In this document: in pieces, positions 3,201-15,200 of the stretch
Numbering within the stretch: the first letter of the stretch is position 1
Layout: each line of letters begins with the position of its first letter
Assembly: GCF_963675165.1 (NCBI RefSeq)
Contig: NC_087382.1
Location: forward strand, 6,558,315-6,622,314
From: Halichondria panicea
Taxonomy: Eukaryota > Porifera > Demospongiae > Suberitida > Halichondriidae
Direction of reading: 5' to 3'
Length of the DNA: 64,000 nt
Program-made: the position numbers and the translations under genes
The notes under the pieces: generated by a model
Databases searched by the model: none
What the model was told of the DNA's origin: nothing
What the model saw: only the letters and a program-made list of their open reading frames with translations

Positions 3201-6200
3201 TTCGCCTACCTTAGCTACTGGGTAGTTCACCTACCTTAGCTACTGGGTAGTTCTACTTGATAGTTCGCCTACCTTAGCTACTTGATAGTTCACCTACCTT
3301 TGCTGCTTGATAGTTCACCTACCTTAGCTACTTCGCAATTGACCTTTGAACCGCATGTTAATTCTATTTAATGCTGCTGTAGCCGTACTGTACATAGCGA
3401 CTAGAGATCAATAATGAGAGCTACATAGCACGTATACAGGTACTGAGGATTATCTAACAGCAATGCAAGACTAGAGTACCACACCAGAACCATTGTATAG
3501 TACAGAATTCTTGTGCTGCGATGGGATTAGGAGATATAAACGTGAACAACTTGAACTGCATGTGTTGTATTAGTCTGGGGCCAGACCTTTTCTCAGAGGG
3601 GAGGGGGAAGAGAAGAAAAAGGTCTCTTAATCCTAGCTCTATTGCCCCAAGCATTTAGACTAGCTAGTATTGTGAATAACATGTAACTTCCAAATGAATC
3701 AAGTGTGGTACTCTCATCTTGCATTGCTGTTACCCATAGGCGTAGGGTAGCACTAACCGGCTGCAGATAATCCTCAGTACTGGTATATATACATGGAGCT
3801 CTCATTTATATTGAGTCGCATGGCTCCAGCAGCAGCATTAACATACAGTTCAAAGGTCAACTTCGAAGTAGCTAAGGTTGGCGAACTACCCAGTAGCTAA
3901 GGTTGGCGAACTACCCAGTAGCTAAGGTAGGTGAACTACCCAGTAGCTAAGGTAGGCGAACTACTCAGTAGCTAAGGTAGGCGAAGTATCAAGTAGCTAA
4001 GGTGAACTAATAGTAACGCTCAGGGCCACCGTATATGGTCCCACTATGTACATGCTCTGCTTATGTGTGTAAGGTTTAAATTTCAAAGGGTATATCTAAT
4101 TGTATATGCATTTTGTATACAGTGCATCCAGTCTAAAGAGTAGAAAAGTATATCTCATTCATTTGTGCAAATACATGAAATTGATATTTCAATAAGCCCA
4201 GCCAACAGTATGAAAACGCTGTAATGAGGCTGAGGAGCGCAAACGCTACTTTTACCTGCAGTTTGCAGTGAGCGGCCATATCTGCTGACTGATGTCAGCA
4301 ACCAACTACCAGCCAAAAGACACTGCAGTAGCTGAGCTGTAGTGTCCATAACTCAGGAGTTGAAACGAACATCTCCAAGAGGTGATTCTACTAAGGCGTA
4401 CGACACACCTTTAAGCAGCAGGTGACCCGAGTAAGTACTGCAGAGGCGGACTGCAGCAATCTGAGGTCAATGAAGCGCTGTGTATATAAAGAAGGTGGCA
4501 GAAGACTCGAACAGTATATCGACAAAAACACCACACTTGAAGTGCAGAAAGCATTTGCACTAGTAATATTTGGGCAATGTATAACCACCGATAAAATGGG
4601 CGTCATTGAGGCTACTAGAGTAGCATGCAAGTTCTCAGGATTTAGTGCTAAAGTAATAAGGAGATGGGCAACGAATGTATTCGATTTATTTGGGAATGTC
4701 TCTTGTGTTGTGGATGTAGATGAAGACGATCTTGTAGAAGTACTGTCCTCCAAAAGGGGTTGTCATTCAAAGGTCATGTCACTCATAAACGACGAGCAAT
4801 TTTGTATTAAGGCCACTAAATATGTCCGGCAGAATGGGTACAGGAAGGGTGAGCCGAATTTGACTTTGACACAATTTTGTAAGTGGATCGAGGAAGATCA
4901 AAACATCAAAGTTAGTGAGCAAACAGTATCAACGTGGTTGCGAAAACTGGGATTTTCATATAAACAGTTTAGCAAAGGGGCGTACTTCGATGGACACAAT
5001 CGAGAGGACGTTGTTGAAGCACGAAACAATTATTGCACCTTAATGGAAGAATTGGATCCACGTCTAATTCGACAGAAGCACACCATTGAGTAATGAGCGG
5101 CCAATAGTTTGAATATTCCATGATGAGTCAACTTTTTTTGCCAATGCTGATCAGTCCTTCCACTGGGCTGACGAACGAATGCAAGTACTAAAACAGAAGT
5201 CACTGGGGCAGGCATTAATGGTTTCGGACTTCATTGATGAGGTTGATGGATATTTACGACACAATGGAGAAGAAGCGAGAGAATATCTTGAGCATCAAAG
5301 TCAAGGTTTCTGGAAAAATCAACATTGTAATATTTCGGAGAGAGAGCTATTCCATGCACTGAGGTGCTACTGCTGACTAGGATTATATTAGATAGTTCAA
5401 ACGTTAACACTTATTTCGATTTTCACAGTGAGATACTTCTCAACGCACATGGCATACATAACATTACGTAATGACAGTAAACTATAAATAGATAGCCAAT
5501 GAAATTGTCCAACACACTCCCCACTTTGACACGCTACGTGGTCAACTAAAATGTGTAAAGGCTAACAATTAAAACGTTTTATGTGTTCACATGTTCATAT
5601 TCATTATTTGTCAAATTCCATTATCAGTGTCGAATTCCATATCAGAGGCTGCCTGTGCTAGAATACGGTCACGAGCTAATGCAGCAGCAGACCTCTTTGG
5701 TCTCAGCGAAACGTTAGTTGATTGGTCGGGATTCTTGCTGTCGTCAGTGGGTTCCAATGCAGGATCGTCCAACACAGGATCAGCTGGTGGGGCCGCCTCA
5801 AGTGGGTACAAATGCTGGATGGGCCTGTTCATTACTGATGTGCGTCCCTTGTTACTGATTCTAACACTAGCTGCCCTGATTTGGCCATCGGCTCCAACTA
5901 GTAGTCGTTCAATTCTTCCGAGCTTCCAAAAGCTACGGGGTTGGGCATCTGAGTAAACAACAACAACGTCACCTTCAGTGATTTGTGGTTCTCCATTACT
6001 GCGATAGTGACGGTGCGCTTCGCGCAATTCCACCAAATATTCTTTTCTCCATCTTTTCCAAAAGGCATCCAATGAGTAATTAAGATGTTTCAATCGAGCA
6101 TTTAGTTGGTAACTGTCTACTTCGCAATCAGTATCCTCGTCACAAAATAGGTGGTCCGGAAAGCTCATAAGTCGTCGGCCAACAAGCAGGTGTGAAGGTG

Positions 6201-9200
6201 TGAGAGGTTCATCCAAATCATCTGCAGAAATGTAGGTGAGTGGTCTAGAGTTTAGCACCATCTCAATCTCTACCAAGGCAGTCAGCAATTCGTCATACGA
6301 AAACTTGGCTTGACCTAAAGCCTTCCTCAAGCAACGTTTAGTCGATCTGACAAGTCGTTCAAACAAGCCTCCCCACCATGGGGCCCTTGGGACATTGAAT
6401 CTCCATTCACAACCAGTTCCTTCCAGATAGTTCTGTACTTCTGGGCTGGATACGACCCTCTTGATGGTCTTGGCTGCTGCTACAAAAGTTTTGCCATTAT
6501 CAGATATCATCATTGCAGGTAAGCCTCTCCTCGCGCTAAACCTTTTGAAACTTCGTATGAATGTGGGTGCCGACATGTCACTCACAAGGTCCAGGTGGAT
6601 AGCTCTGGTAACACAACAAGTGTATAATACTATCCAAACCTTCGTTTGCACTCCACCAGGATGCTTGACGTACAATGGTCCAGCAAAATCAACACCAGTG
6701 CTCGTAAAGGGTGGTGCTTCTTGAACTCTAAAAGTAGGCAGTGGGGGGGGTGGTGGTACTCGGCAGGACATTCCTTCGTGTCGTCTGCAGGTGTTGCAAC
6801 TGTGAAGAACTTGCTTGACTACACTTCTTCCCTTTATCACCCAGAATCGTGACCTGAGTTCGGTGAGGGTCTCCTTTACACCGTTGTGTAGCACTCGACT
6901 ATGAGATTGACGGATATACATTGTTGTCAGAGGATGGTCACTCGGCAAAATAATAGGGTGCTTGGTCGAGTATGGTAAAGTTGCATTGGCAATTCTCCCT
7001 CGACTTCTCAAAACTCCATGTTCATCTTCGAAAAGGAACAACTGCTTCTCCCACATTAAGAAATTCTTGTGATCTCTCAGCAACAGTTGTGCTTCCTTTA
7101 TTAGGAGTACTTCGGCAATCATTCTTTCATTTTTACAAACTGTGGTAAGAGATATGAGTCTCTTCATATAGGAACAAAACTTCAATACGTAGGTGAGAAC
7201 ATTGACAAGTTTGTTGATATCGCTAAAATTATTGACCTGAATGAGGTTCGTAACAGAAGACTCCTCGATTGTCAAAAGACCATGTACGGCTCGTTTCTCG
7301 CTTGCCGGGAGCTCTTCGAGGCATTCCGAGGGAAGGTCGTCATCGGTTGCTTTGTCAGAATACCTAAATGGCATGCTAGGACCGTCTCGCCACAATTTGT
7401 TCACCAATAATTCGAGAGGTGTAGTTCCCCTTGAGGGCACATCAGCAGGATTTTCAACGCCTGGTATGTGATTCCAACACTCAACTGGGAACAGGTTTCG
7501 AATTTCTGACACTCTGTTTTGCACGAACGGCTTCCATGACTTTCCTATATTTCTTATCCAGCATAGAGCGACTTGGGAGTCAATGAAGCAGTGAAAGGAG
7601 GATATCTCAATCTCTGGGTTCAAACTCAATTTTGTCGTGTTCATTAATCTTGCGAGCAATACTGCTGAGAGAAGCTCAAGTCTAGGTACAGTTTGTTTCT
7701 TCAAAGGTGCCACTCTCGTTTTGGCAACCACAAACCGCATGTGAGTCTTGTCTTTGGTCTCAATCAACAAATAGATAACTGCAGCGTACGCTGACAGTGA
7801 GGCATCACAGTAGCCGCAAAGCTGATAGGAAAGCACTTCACCTTGCACAGCTTCCAGGTAGCATCTAGGAATTGTCAAAGGCTGCGCATCTTCCAAAGCC
7901 AACACGAGTTTGCTCCACTGCGTTATCGAGGCCTCCGGTATTTTCTCGTCCCAGCCAATCTTGGCCTTGCATAAAGACTGCATGAACACCTTGTATCTCA
8001 CTACAATTGGGGCCAAGAATCCTAATGGGTCATACACCCTCCCGATAAGGCTGATGACGTTCCTTTTGGTGGGCTCCAGTCTTCGGGCTTGTTCAGCCAA
8101 ATCGGCTAATGAGAAGATAATCTGATCTGAGGTGATATTCCACTTCAATCCAAGAATTCTTTGCTCAGCATCGCAAAGTTCTCCATTGCCACTCAGTGTG
8201 GACTGTGAATATGTTTCCATTGGCTTAGGCTCATCTTGATGCTGTGCCGACTCCTCGAGGTCCACCTTAGCTTGCAATCTCGTTGCATTAGTGTAAAACT
8301 TTCGCAAGTTGAATGCACCTGTCTTCAGCAAGGTTTTAGCTTCACTGTACAACTGATAAGCTTGCTCTTCTGATTGTGAACCTGTTACAATATCATCGAC
8401 ATAGATCGACCGTATCACCTTGGAAACAATTTCACGGTGTGTGTCCGCGTGTATTTCAAGATGGTGTCGGATGGTGGCGTTCAACAAGAAGGGGCTGGCA
8501 TTCACCCCAAATACCACTCTAGCGAACCGATACACAACAATTCTCGGCTCGTCCTTAACTGCATCGTCCACCCACAAGAACCGCAAGAAATCTCGATCCT
8601 TAGCTGCCACAGATATCATAAGAAACGCCTTTTCGATATCGGCTGTTACAGCAACTCGATGGGTTCTAAACCGACAAAGAATGTCAAGGATTTTTTGATC
8701 GAATTTCGGTCCTTGGTCCAGACAGTCGTTGAGAGAGGGCCCACTCGTTTTGGCCGAGGCATCGTAGACCACTCGCACTTTCGTGGTCGTTTTATCCTTT
8801 CGGATTACTGGATGATGAGGTAAATAGTGTACATCGGGCCTGTTTGCCAAATCCTCTACTAATTCAACGATCCCCTGCTCAAACTGCGTCTTGATCACCA
8901 TGTCATACTCGCGTAGTACATCTGGGTCGTGTCGGAGGCGTCGAAGCAACCCCTTCAATCTCTTCAAACTAAGCGCGTAGTTGTTGGGAAGGTCCAGTCT
9001 CGGTGCCTTCCATGGAAGTTGAACTTCGTACCTTCCTTCACGAAACTCTATTGTGTCACGAAGTTTATCGTACAGTGATCGATCTGTGTTTGGGATTCCA
9101 AAGGATTCCAGTTCCCAAAACGATCTCATCGTGTCATTCAGCATCTTTTCCTCAAATCCTTCACAAGTGATGTGCAGCGAATGTGTTATTAAACCGTGAG

Positions 9201-12200
9201 AATCCATACTCGGAGTGGAAATAGGACCAGAGAGAACCCATCCGAGTCTCGTTTCGATGGCAACTGGCCCGTTTGTTCCTCTCTGCAGTGCTCCGGTTAC
9301 GAGGTCCCAATAGTGATCAGACCCAACTAGCATATCCACATGGATTGTCTCAGCGTCTTCCGGATCGTCAGCAAACTCTAATCCACTCAAGTGTGGATAT
9401 GTCCTTCTATAGTCAACGAGGGGATGAGGCTTTAACGGCTCACAGATCGTAGGTACAGTGAACAGTGAGAGATTTTGCGTCTCCCCATTCTTCAGCTTGA
9501 GCCCTAGTTTTACATATTCACAGACACTGTCACCATTCTGGGCGGACCCAAATGTCATGATAGTCATACGTTGTTCTCCTGCAGCGGTCAACTCGAGTCG
9601 GCTCCTCGCACTGTTTGTAATGTATGATCTCTGGCTGCCAGTATCCATCACCATTCGAACACTCAAAGAGGTTGACGGACAGTCTGGATTGTATGCAGTG
9701 GCTCTTGCTGTTTGAAGAAGTACAGGTTTACTAGAATACGTCCATAATAATCCCGTTTTTGGTAGCTGGAAAGGGGGGCTTCAGGGTCGAGCCCTCCTGT
9801 ACCAGGTGATTCCTGTTGTTTGTTTTCTGGTGCCTTTCGCCTAGGTTGGCCTGAACATATCGCGACATGATGCCTTCCTTTGCAACTACGACACTTGATT
9901 CGGCTGCGGCAGTTCCGGGACACATGCCCCTTTCCAAGACATATGTAGCATCTACCAGTTCTTCTGATAACCTCGCGACGAGACTCAATGCTTGCAACCG
10001 TTCGACAATCTTGCGAAGCATGCTCTCGTTCACAAAAGCAGCATTTGAGTGTGGTGGTCTCGGTAAATAGTGCCGCTCCAGTCGGGTGTTCCTTTGGTCG
10101 ACGGGTTTCAGTTCCCCGTGTGGGTTCAGAATTCGCCCGTGTTGTCGACCGTTCTCGAGCCTGAACCTCCTCTTCAATTACACCCAATAGCTCTGTAAAA
10201 TCCCAACTTTCACTGTCTCCAAACTTTCGACTAGCGATTAATCTCAATTCGGACGGTAGCTTACTCATTAAAACAGATGATAACAACGATCCATACGACT
10301 CGGCACTGACCCCTAACGATTTGAGGCTTCGTACGTTCGATTCGATCACATCGTACAATTGTCTGATCCCTTTGGTATCATTCTGGGAGGCCACCCCATC
10401 GACATGTAGCAATTGCTCCATGTGTTTATTTATGATAAGTTGTTTATTACCAAATCGCTTTTGCAATAGATCGATCGCTTCGTCATAATTAGCATCTGTG
10501 AGGGTCAAACCAGATATTGCCTCGAGGGCCGTATTAGACACCATAGACCTCAAATAATTTAACTTATCAACCTTTGAAAGCTCGGGGTTCTCATGAATTG
10601 CACACTTATACGAGTCCCAAAAGGGAGTCCATTGAGTTAAAATCCCATTGAAAGGCTTAATCAATAATTTAGGTAGTCTGACCTTACTGCTGGCATAGCC
10701 CATTGCGGGTGTAGTCCTTGCAGGGACCCGAGATGTCACTGGAGCCTCAATCTCGATCAGGCTGGCGTAGACACGCTCCTTGTAGTTGTCAGCTCGCCCA
10801 ATCTCATCCTCCAGTTCATCATCTCCCACAAGCGTCAGAATCTCAGCATCCAGTAGCTTAATCTCCTCCAGCTTCTCCTTGAGGCTCATGCTTAACTGGT
10901 TCAACACAGCTCGTTGTGGTTCATCTCCAGAGCTCAGCATCTCCTCTACTCTCGTCATTATCCTAGTGGCGGACGCCTTGTGGCCGCCTCTCACTCTCCT
11001 CTTCCGCGTTAGTTCTTCCGCCATTGGAGGTCACGTTCTTTAATTTTGGAAGTTTCTCTAAACGGCTCTTCACAGCTTAGTAGCTCTATCCGGCTCGAAG
11101 GACCATGTAATATTTCGGAGAGAGAGCTATTCCATGCACTGAGGTGCTACTGCTGACTAGGATTATATTAGATAGTTCAAACGTTAACACTTATTTCGAT
11201 TTTCACAGTGAGATACTTCTCAACGCACATGGCATACATAACATTACGTAATGACAGTAAACTATAAATAGATAGCCAATGAAATTGTCCAACAAACATA
11301 TGATAGAACAAGTTAATAAAAATTTTCGAGAATAAATATCCTAACACTACAGCACTATTTATATTTGACAACGCACCATCTCACATGAAGAAGGCAAACG
11401 ATGCACTCAACGCAGATGCAATGAACGTAAACCCGGGAGGCAAACAGCCAGTAATGAGACCAACTTTCCATAATGGTGAGGTTCAGGAGATGAATCTTCC
11501 GAACGGGACGCCTAAAGGAATGAAGATAGTATTAGAGGAGAGGGGAGTCTGTACGCAAGGAATGGTGGCTGGCTAGAGACATGACGGCAAGATTAAAAAC
11601 ATACGAAGATTTTAAAAGTAGTAAACCGATATTGAGCGAACTAATTGAAAGTAAAGGACATGTGTGTACATACATTTGTACCAAAGTTTCACTATGAACT
11701 AAAATCCCATTGAGAGATGCTGGTGCCAGGCCAAAAAATACACACGAGCACATGCAAATGGAAGTATTGTACGACTAAGTACCCATAGGACTGGACACAG
11801 CAACAAAAGACATGATTAAAAAATTCTTTCGAAAGAGCAAGGACTATGAAACAGCATATAGAGAGGGATATACAACAGAAAATGTAGATAGTATTGTAAA
11901 GTTATACAAGTCACATAGAAGAGTAGGTAGTAAGGACTGATCACATTTTTTAATATATAACGCAGCAACAAAAATAATTATGTTTGCAACTACACCATTA
12001 CTTCCATGTACAGACTAGGGATCTGGAAGGGGCTCTGTTGCGTCAGAATCACTTGTATCAGTTTGTCGTGGCCGAGGGGGGGAACAATAAGTATGTCACT
12101 GTTAAGTGTTGTAGTGTCACTGTCAGTAGAGCCTAGTCTAGGGGAGGAATCAATAAGTACGTCACTGTTAAGTCTTGTAGCGTCAGAGTCTGGTCTAGGG

Positions 12201-15200
12201 GAGAAATCAATAAGTACGTCACTGTTAAGTGTTGTAGCGTCACTGTCAGTAGAGTCTAGCCTAGGGGAGGAAGCAATAAGTACATCACTGTTAAGTCTCG
12301 TAATGTCACTGTTAAGTCTCGTAACGTCACTGTCTGTAGAGTCTGGTCTAGGGGGGGGAACAATAATTACGTCACTGTCAAGTCTCTTAATGTCACTGTC
12401 AGGGTCTATACGTCGGCGCTTAGGGGATGGAGGTTCTGTAAATTGTTTGTCATCGTCTAGTCTCTGATATTCGGCAAAAGATTCTCTTCTGTCACATTCT
12501 GCTATGGTCACAGTAGGAGGACACGGTGGAGACTGCTGAGGTGATGGAGTGACCAACTGTAATAATATACTGTTTAAAATAGAAATAATAACAACCTGGA
12601 CTCCATGCAGTGTAAACAGCCTCTCTCGCACAGTCCTCAGACTGTCTGGCTGACCAAACACAGACACACGCACATCACACACAGAAGAAGACCATCTCCG
12701 ATTTCCGCCCTGACTGTACACAGCTCCAGTAATAACGCTGTGATCAACACTTCATAAATGATATTCAGCAATAAAAGTATACTTACCCTGTTGCAAACAA
12801 GCCTGATCGTAGCAGGGGAGCTAGGTAGGCAGCATCTTCCCTAGCGAGGTGACCCAACTTTTCACTGACATATGAGGACCGAAGGTAGACTGCCACACAG
12901 TTGGGGTCATGGTTGTTGGTCTCTAGATAGAGCACTACCCTCCCACCACCACCCACAGCAGATACAGCAACGTCATAAAACCGAACGCCTTTTATAACAG
13001 ACAAAAAAAGTAGCAAGCAGTATACTTCCATTCTTTCTAGCTTTCTATACTACAATCTGGTTTCGCACCAAAGTAACACGAGGTTACCGCGTGCCACGTG
13101 ACACAAACGTCACACTTGCGGTTTTGGACCGTGATGTCATGAAAACGGGTTGATTGTACAAAATTGTGTATAAAATTAATTATCTCCGGAAATAAAGTTT
13201 TTCTGGACAAGTTTTTCTTATCAAAAGTTAGACAATTATTTTATTCAAGCTTACTTTGTGTAATTAACCCGAGGCGCGTGGGCGGCCACGGGTTATAGTA
13301 GTCGTTTGGTTTGTTTGTTTGTTTGTTTGTGACAGGTGAATCTACTCAACTGGATGCCACAGCACTGCGTTTACAGCATGGATAGCCTTCATACAACAAG
13401 TTATTAATTTTAATAGTGGCAGAATTTCATGTTAAACCTTCGTTGTCAAATAAAAACGAGCAAAAGCTAAGAAGCTTGTGACTGGGTCTGCTTACCTGGA
13501 TGCTCTAGCACTGCGTTTACAGCATGGGTAGCCTCCACACAACAAGTCAGTACTTCTAATAGTGGCAGCTTTCGGTGTTAAAGCTTTGTTGTCTAATAAA
13601 AGCGAGCAAAATGTAGCTTGAACAGAACTTGCACATGCGTTACTTATAACTGAAGTGATCCTGTACCAGGTCCAGAAACAATGGAACAGGGTCACTAAAG
13701 TAGAAAGCTGTATATACCAGGAACAATGGGACAGGGTCACTAAAGTAGAAAGCTTGCTTTAGCTGACAGGGATCCATGCAGGACCTGGAGCCATACTTCT
13801 CTGAGACTCCAGGCTTCTTTGCTGTGATCCTAATCCAATCTATCTATAGTACTACTACATGTTCTCAAATGTTTCAGCATGCCTCCAGTCTGGTTTAGTT
13901 TTATTGCTCCTGAGTTGCTGTGCAAGTCATGCATGATGATGATAGCAACATCACTATATGCACTGCATTATATCAGTCTTCTGGTTTCTTTATAATCATG
14001 TCACCAGCCGAGGGTTTGCACTTTAGTGCTCTAGTTTTTAGACCTTAGCCGTTAGATTTTCTTCAAATCTCTCCCTAACCGAAACGGCACTAAAAACTAG
14101 CAATTTTGAGTACTGTGGAGGATGTGTAGATATGTAAGCAATATCAAACCTTCCATAAGATGGCCAATTTATCTATAGATGTTGTGACAAAGTCCCAGAC
14201 CTTAGCCGGAAATCGTTGGTCTTTTCTCTCCCTAACCGATTACCCACTATAACATTTGTTTACTGTTTTATTAGTCACTGCAAACCCACCACCTTATGTT
14301 TCCATGGAAAAAATTTGGATATATTGTAGCTTGTTCTTTCACCTACACAATAGTACCAGCACATTTTCTTAAAAATGTTCTGAGATATTTACATATAATT
14401 ATGTACAAATATTCATGAATTTGTGGTATTCTACTCTTTAGACTGGATGCACTGTACATATGTAATCTCCTGTCTGAACTTTTGAACTGTACAGTGTATA
14501 CCATGTTATGGAAAAGAACTGTTGATGACAAACTAATTATTGTTGAATTAGCTGGAGGTAATAAACGCCGCCCTTGAACAGTGGCCTCTCTCGAATTGTA
14601 GCCTAGCTCCTCTTCCAGCAAAATAAAACAATTAGTAGCATATACGGTACATGTACAGTACATAATGTTAACACAGAATAGTATGCAGCCACTTATATGT
14701 ATGTGCACACTCCTATAATCTGCTGCTTGTTCTACAGGTCAAGGTAACATTAAATGAAGAGGAACTGAAGGAAGAAATTTCCTTTCTTAAAGAGAAGTAT
14801 CGTTATCAGAGACGCCTGTCATTTGAGCCCAGTTTTTTCTTTGATTCAACGTTATCACTTCTCCTAGAATGGTGCACTGCTGTTGGTGCAATCTATGGAG
14901 TCACTGTTTCAAATTTCAACAGCTCGTTTTCTGATGGACGTGCTTTGTGCTATCTAGTCCATCACTACCATCCTTCTCTTCTCCCACTCGAGCTTATATC
15001 GGATGAGACAAGTGGCTCTCAATCTATTGCTTCTAGTTGCCTATCACCTGCGAATTTTAGCTGCAGCAAGATTAACTGGAGTGCCTCTTTTAGTCCGACA
15101 ACTGGAATTAACCCAAAACAAGAGTTGTTTCTTACAAATGAAAAATCAAATTTTAAAGCTCTTTCTAAAGCTATCAACAGACTTGGTGGGATACCCCTCC

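Follow-up and report, generated by a model that had tools for sequence, protein, structure and literature searches.

Whether a DNA transposon can carry, as a gene of its own, a protein with the HIRAN domain known from the repair protein HLTF is the question raised by a 64,000-nucleotide stretch of the genome of the sponge Halichondria panicea (contig NC_087382.1, positions 6,558,315 to 6,622,314; hereafter, the window), in which one pair of inverted ends encloses both a transposase relic and a HIRAN gene. Most descriptions of cut-and-paste transposons present them as parasites with a single gene that rely on the host for repair. The window element is a cut-and-paste DNA transposon of the broadly defined IS630-Tc1-mariner group, and its two convergent genes encode a DDE transposase and a HIRAN protein. 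HIRAN is a real and recurrent passenger of this transposon family, in the same convergent layout, and the HIRAN-bearing kinds comprise this DDE_3-type clade, pogo-like DDE_1 lineages (one of them with HIRAN fused to an Ulp1-type domain), and a third repeat with 8-9-bp duplications. On balance, we favor the reading that HIRAN is a recurrent gene of two-gene transposons of several kinds and that its protein acts in trans as a transposition helper.

The two ends of the window element (Table 1) are complementary at 28/28 positions and bear TA at both outer tips, as the sequence-only reading had claimed, although its span of 4120-14454 omits the TA. Searching the genome assembly (131 Mb, 39 contigs) with the end sequence gave 134 matches with at most three mismatches, versus 0 for the reversed control; thus, the ends belong to a repeat family, and a chance palindrome is ruled out as their origin. 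Between them lie the transposase pieces (4491-11940, plus strand) and the HIRAN gene (11990-13049, minus strand), which converge, as had been proposed, at a distance of about 50 bp, the transposase frame ending at 11940 and the 3' frame of HIRAN at 11990. The transposase had also rightly been called decayed, its frames being broken and split by a BEL/Pao long terminal repeat (LTR) retrotransposon; because of both, the window copy is dead. The inserted element of ~6 kb, of which the sequence-only reading makes no mention, has LTRs that are 99% alike, a match to Peptidase_A17, the Pao peptidase domain (1.4e-48), and a flanking 5-bp duplication, AACAT, found by eye at 5321-5325 and 11295-11299. 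Including this insertion the window copy measures 10339 bp end to end, and ~4.4 kb without it. A second copy at another locus, L001 (1287-5755, 4469 bp), has perfect ends and the two genes in the layout of the window, and lacks the retrotransposon. TA borders the outer ends of both copies and is all that the flanks on the two sides have in common.

A genome search with the transposase gave 43 matches, and 12 loci were placed in a tree (the window, L001, L018, L019+L008, and L020-L027). The first four form one clade (support 100/99), with at least half of the residues of each member alike to L001 over most of the matched stretch, and HIRAN is present in 4/4; no HIRAN was found in the DNA fetched around the eight distant relatives, L020-L027. 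When pairs of ends within 15 kb were sought among 100 listed of the 134 end matches, 25 were obtained: 20 of 694-799 bp, three of 1262-1632 bp, one of 4469 bp (L001), and one of 10339 bp (the window). Judged by length rather than by their interiors, 23/25 are too short for both genes; the two that are long enough carry transposase and HIRAN. Thus, the objection that the sequence-only reading had raised against itself, namely that most copies might lack HIRAN, fits the ends but not the longer copies, since both long pairs, L018, and L019+L008 all carry the gene. As a separate observation, the inverted ends of L019+L008 (G000:C17:3029833-3038397) are ~500 bp long, and between its transposase pieces lie ~3.8 kb of other sequence in which integrase-like frames were recognized by eye.

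HIRAN genes also accompany transposases of another type. A search with the HIRAN of L015 gave 28 matches at 26 loci (group B; 17/26 are covered at least partly by fetched DNA and the other nine are known by coordinates alone). For 14 of these 26 loci, one of 63 DDE_1 matches is found no more than 3 kb away, versus 0.07 expected by chance; for the 96 DDE_3 matches, a list that lacks the window family's own transposases, the corresponding number is 0. The two genes converge in 10 of the 14 pairs, and two further pairs identified through direct transposase similarity, L007 and L041, are both convergent; viewed from the transposase side, 15/55 DDE_1 loci are accompanied by a listed HIRAN at 3 kb or less. 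At 15 loci, the DNA on either side of the transposase-HIRAN pair was searched for inverted ends, which were scored against 20 shuffles, 14 loci being testable (L032 was not). Ends scoring above all 20 shuffles were found in 11/14 (the window, L001, L019+L008, L002, L003, L006, L007, L014, L017, L028, and L033), and the search did not rise above shuffles in L018, L030, and L015, the first two with a short fetched left flank. The top score in L006 and L014 falls on a stretch other than the clear ends, which were read by eye (better ends lie at 4540 and 9039 in L006). Together, the 14/26 loci against 0.07 expected and the inverted-end search rule out chance co-location of HIRAN and transposons. 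The transposase of L003 is an open DDE_1 frame of 456 residues (DDE_1 5.1e-39, CENP-B_N 1e-10, HTH_Tnp_Tc5 2.3e-6), and those of L002 and L015 match DDE_1 and HTH_Tnp_Tc5. This combination of DDE_1 with CENP-B_N or HTH_Tnp_Tc5 makes the L003, L002, and L015 elements pogo-like, which the window copy is not.

In one DDE_1 lineage, HIRAN is fused to a Ulp1-type domain (Peptidase_C48, hereafter C48). Within 48-nucleotide ends, L028 holds an open DDE_1 transposase of 504 residues and, convergent with it, an open HIRAN-C48 protein of 334 residues. Its HIRAN part alone scores 22.0, just under the Pfam cut-off of 24.7, and that of L006, which has the same fusion, scores 34.1. With a cut-off of 20.7, the putative C48 peptidase tails of L028 and L006 score 23.4 and 23.5 bits; the match of the L028 C48 part to the structures of the PDB is weak (OtDUB, E 0.1).

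The third kind emerged from the Pfam matches. HIRAN was matched at no fewer than 18 places in the genome (at least 18, all 17 besides the window having been fetched and read), and in 10/18 a DDE transposase lies within 3 kb (the window, L001, L002, L003, L006, L007, L008, L014, L015, and L017). The other 8/18 (L004, L005, L009-L013, and L016) form a third group and lie in repeated DNA, so that the converse objection, that HIRAN homologues might occupy conserved loci with no transposon ends, fails for the 18 places read. A repeat of ~1.1-1.3 kb is common to L009-L013, with CAGAGGAGG ends on both sides in L009, L011, L012, and L013 and on one side in L010, and with flanking duplications of 9 bp in L009, 9 bp in L011, and 8 bp in L013, and none in L012. 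L004, L005, and L016 are 97-99% alike, show the CAGAGGAGG end on the one side reached, and contain a long partner gene; in L004 this convergent gene has no Pfam match above cut-off, and it may be an undescribed transposase.

The HIRAN assignment of the window gene rests on a Pfam match (PF08797) of 32.5 bits (E 6.6e-6; curated cut-off 24.7), and the L001 counterpart reaches 31.3 bits against the same cut-off. In the window, L001, L002, L008, and L018, the first exon stops, by visual matching, at equivalent residues marked by GGGTAAG or GGGTGAG, and within 76-175 nucleotides comes a similar stretch of the next exon. This shared end and donor-like sequence in five copies point to, rather than prove, the spliced gene that had been proposed. 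A profile of eight of these HIRAN proteins, weighted towards group B, finds the HLTF HIRAN structures with an E of 0.001, and L003 alone does so with 9.5e-8. In HLTF, a cavity of the HIRAN domain flanked by Y72 and Y93 accommodates a single-stranded dinucleotide, and the protein requires the domain to bind forks; a NN90,91AA mutant is described alongside this cavity (PMC4666394). The transposon proteins belong to the same domain family by sequence and, in an alignment by eye, keep HLTF residues N91 and D94 in the window and L003; unlike HLTF, they are small proteins that occur by themselves or as C48 fusions and show no helicase or RING, and in the window Y93 is replaced by H.

With HLTF HIRAN as its basis, an action of these proteins on DNA can be proposed: HIRAN is read as a recurrent accessory gene whose product probably acts on transposition ends or forks. 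The protein would bind 3' single-stranded ends or forks at the excised element or at the donor gap and would direct host repair at these sites, perhaps so that the gap is filled from the sister and the donor copy is restored. The fused Ulp1 domain would do part of this work by stripping SUMO or a related modifier off repair proteins.

The HIRAN type of DDE_3 elements also occurs in a pogo-like element, L002, and has thus crossed between kinds of transposon. The L002 HIRAN groups with those of DDE_3 elements with support of 100/100 (91/89 in an earlier, wider tree). L002 and L003 both have DDE_1 transposases and a nearly identical end sequence; the transposase tree does not settle whether they are sisters, and the DDE_1/DDE_3 crossing is independent of that relation. 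The tree used for topology testing omits L004, L009, L012, L016, L039, and L043 of the wider tree and adds L040; in the wider tree, L038 and L039 stood in the wrong frame, L038 being corrected for the later one, and L018 is in neither. A further tree dropped rows with fewer than 110 aligned residues (L002, L003, and L035), and of the transposase trees, L015 and L036 are missing from the first, and L015 and L028, for which nothing aligned, from the second. A further reading can be put forward tentatively: HIRAN might be a mobile module swapped into or among at least three transposon kinds of this one genome, mostly in convergent position, where it would capture 3' ends or forks and reprogram repair, with a Ulp1/SUMO step in one lineage, and the elements would thereby be provided for repair after excision.

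Apart from these two readings, the HIRAN protein could be a regulator or counter-defense factor acting on chromatin, SUMO, or silencing instead of on DNA ends, a view that we consider rather unlikely. The C48 fusion speaks for it, as do the PKRRR and DVIIV or DVIVISDSD stretches in the HIRAN tails of the window, L001, and L018. However, the number of stretches in the HIRAN tail resembling SUMO-interacting motifs (SIMs) is no higher than in shuffles of the same composition (3 versus a mean of 2.0, with 659 of 2000 shuffles as high), and a putative SIM array is therefore a mere lead. Additionally, the L003 HIRAN frame of 126 residues, which stands beside an open transposase frame, has neither a SIM-like nor a C48 tail.

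That captured host HIRAN genes are passive cargo of no benefit to the element is improbable, and it is here that the observations unfavorable to a helper role have to be weighed. Between the window and L001, the ratio of nonsynonymous to synonymous substitution rates (dN/dS) of HIRAN is 0.54, a constraint that is not significant (p 0.23), and the suggestion that HIRAN is younger or under selection thus receives no support from this pair; nor is the ratio of 0.47 between L006 and L007 significant (p 0.15). Pogo-like elements can dispense with HIRAN, as 40/55 DDE_1 loci lack a listed one within 3 kb. The DNA fetched around L029, L031, and L034, whose transposases are of the HIRAN-C48 type, showed no HIRAN, and neither did that around L035, L036, and L037, which are of the L003 type, L037 being the nearest of these to L003. 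Among four decayed or short fragments of the window type, with 53-59% identity to L001 over short stretches, the HIRAN trace of L044, which is convergent with the transposase, is doubtful (tblastn 0.005, profile 0.017), and the DNA fetched around L045-L047 yielded none. Conversely, no DDE_1 match comes within 3 kb at 12/26 group-B loci; of the six that were read, L041 is a decayed transposase-HIRAN pair and L042 holds a short transposase remnant, and in L038, L039, L040, and L043 the HIRAN frame lies in or beside a common short repeat with ends of the TACCGTACCGTCGCGAAAATA type (the right end of L043 is less exact), where no transposase was found. Three of the 14 HIRAN-DDE_1 pairs are divergent and one has both genes on the same strand. 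As for the crossing of transposon kinds, the tree holding the L002 HIRAN with L003 was rejected by the approximately unbiased (AU) test with p 3.2e-6 in a test made after the similarity had been seen, and the HIRAN tree gives L008 a long branch. Moreover, all of the evidence comes from one genome. These points count against a helper, and those on constraint, on DDE_1 loci free of HIRAN, and on short repeats that hold it without transposase are what passive cargo would have in its favor. Against passive cargo, however, stand the presence of HIRAN in all four well-preserved members of one transposase clade, its same convergent position in several lineages, and its conservation when fused to C48: between L028 and each of L014, L017, and L006, dN is 0.52-0.55 while dS is 2.3 or saturated (p <1e-14 on counts), a difference showing that the HIRAN-C48 genes, alone among those compared, have been under purifying constraint across divergent elements.

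Nested insertion, in which transposons and HIRAN repeats would merely co-occupy repeat-rich regions, as the retrotransposon inside the window element and the other DNA in L019+L008 illustrate, is disfavored to the point of being hardly credible, given that none of 39 HIRAN loci comes within 3 kb of any of the 96 DDE_3 matches (window-family transposases not being in that list) versus 15 near DDE_1, that both genes lie between inverted ends at separate locations in the chromosomes, and that 10/14 DDE_1 pairs converge.

A Kolobok-type two-gene transposon, of a kind that targets TTAA, is ruled out for these elements by the DDE_3/DDE_1 domains and the TA ends. The main transposase frame of L001, the counterpart of that in the window, matches Pfam DDE_3 at 8.4e-12, with 78 residues from the first to the second D and 111 from the second D to E. 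Tc1/mariner elements in the strict sense have a DD34-41E spacing, and because of the 111 residues the L001 transposase is not a canonical Tc1, which is thereby ruled out for the window family; of the earlier label, Tc1/IS630-type, the broad IS630-Tc1-mariner assignment stands by catalytic domain (DDE_3 in L001, DDE_1 in L003) and the Tc1 part does not. Sailor, with a DD82E spacing, a transposase of ~676 residues, and a TATA duplication (PMC8533490), is excluded by the same spacing and by flanks common only in TA. As far as the accessible parts of the descriptions go, the IS630-Tc1-mariner elements are alike in their TA-bounded inverted ends, DDE_3 or DDE_1 domain, and short non-coding derivatives, and include multi-gene relatives in the ciliate Tec/TBE elements, but no HIRAN gene is mentioned there; Tigger is described with a single open reading frame, versus two genes here (PMC8533490, PMC9219625, PMC7325037). 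Relatives of two transposases were also sought among viral contigs, and none were found there.

Parallels exist in other DNA transposons. KolobokP is likewise a DDD/E transposon with a DNA-processing accessory gene downstream on the opposite strand, and exonucleases or a RecQ helicase are found in further lineages of Kolobok; however, its transposase is of another superfamily, the accessory genes are nucleases or a helicase, and the word HIRAN is absent from the accessible text (PMC9587614). In Ginger1 and Mutator elements, a Ulp1 cysteine protease domain also travels with a DNA transposon, and a role of Ulp1 in repair after transposition has been suggested by the authors; in Ginger1, however, Ulp1 forms the C-terminus of the transposase (PMC2836005), whereas in the DDE_1 lineage described here the domain is joined to HIRAN and encoded apart from the transposase, by a convergent gene. 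The sequence-only reading knew of no described Tc1-type element with HIRAN cargo, and a literature search by title and abstract, with subscription papers and Repbase reports outside its scope, likewise found no eukaryotic DNA transposon with HIRAN. If the helper reading is correct, some elements bring their own means of steering repair (an end-binding HIRAN and, in one lineage, a SUMO-protease fold), and the copy gain of cut-and-paste elements after excision would become testable with a defined protein. HIRAN-bearing elements also suggest a source for the stand-alone HIRAN genes of such genomes.

Table 1. Features of the window element, with the N-terminal motifs of related transposases (coordinates within the window unless a locus is named)
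Feature	Coordinates	Strand	Basis
Left terminal inverted repeat	4118..4145	+	TA then CAGTGCATCC; inverted-repeat comparison and 134 genome matches
Transposase, N-terminal part	4491..5093	+	Frame open over 4395-5093, then a stop; identity to L001 of 97.7% and 92.3% in two pieces
Transposase, stretch with first catalytic D (HDEST)	5113..5325	+	Open frames, L001 comparison, alignment
BEL/Pao LTR retrotransposon inside the transposase gene	5326..11294	-	LTRs, Peptidase_A17, AACAT on both sides
Transposase, second catalytic D (FDNAPSH) and following stretch, frame broken	11307..11697	+	Frames 11307-11576 and 11536-11697, L001 comparison
Transposase, C-terminus	11779..11940	+	98% identical to L001
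HIRAN gene, second open frame: end of domain, then tail with PKRRR and DVIIV/DVLID/DILIV repeats	11990..12751	-	Open frames; SIM-like by eye only
HIRAN gene, first open frame, with HIRAN domain	12786..13049	-	Pfam match 12795-12995
Right terminal inverted repeat	14429..14456	-	Inverted-repeat comparison
MSILKFF	L028:4313-4333	-	Motif scan
MALYKYF	L014:2520-2540	+	Motif scan
MSLFNYF	L007:2712-2732	+	Motif scan
MALYRYF	L017:7406-7426	-	Motif scan

Three minor observations concern transposases and flanking DNA. Near the transposase start, members of the HIRAN-C48 lineage show an M[SA][IL]xx[FY]F stretch, which was found at 4/15 loci scanned, two unrelated Q-type matches lying in other frames, and which we take to resemble the N-terminal PCNA-binding motif of RFC1. 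Binding of the pogo transposase to PCNA has been reported, and a review calls its functional relevance unclear (PMC5371812). Elsewhere, a DDE_1 match lies within an open frame of 2255 residues (G000:C17:5546271-5546765). Finally, tandem 25-bp repeats occupy positions 3829-4028 of the window, just outside the left end of the element.

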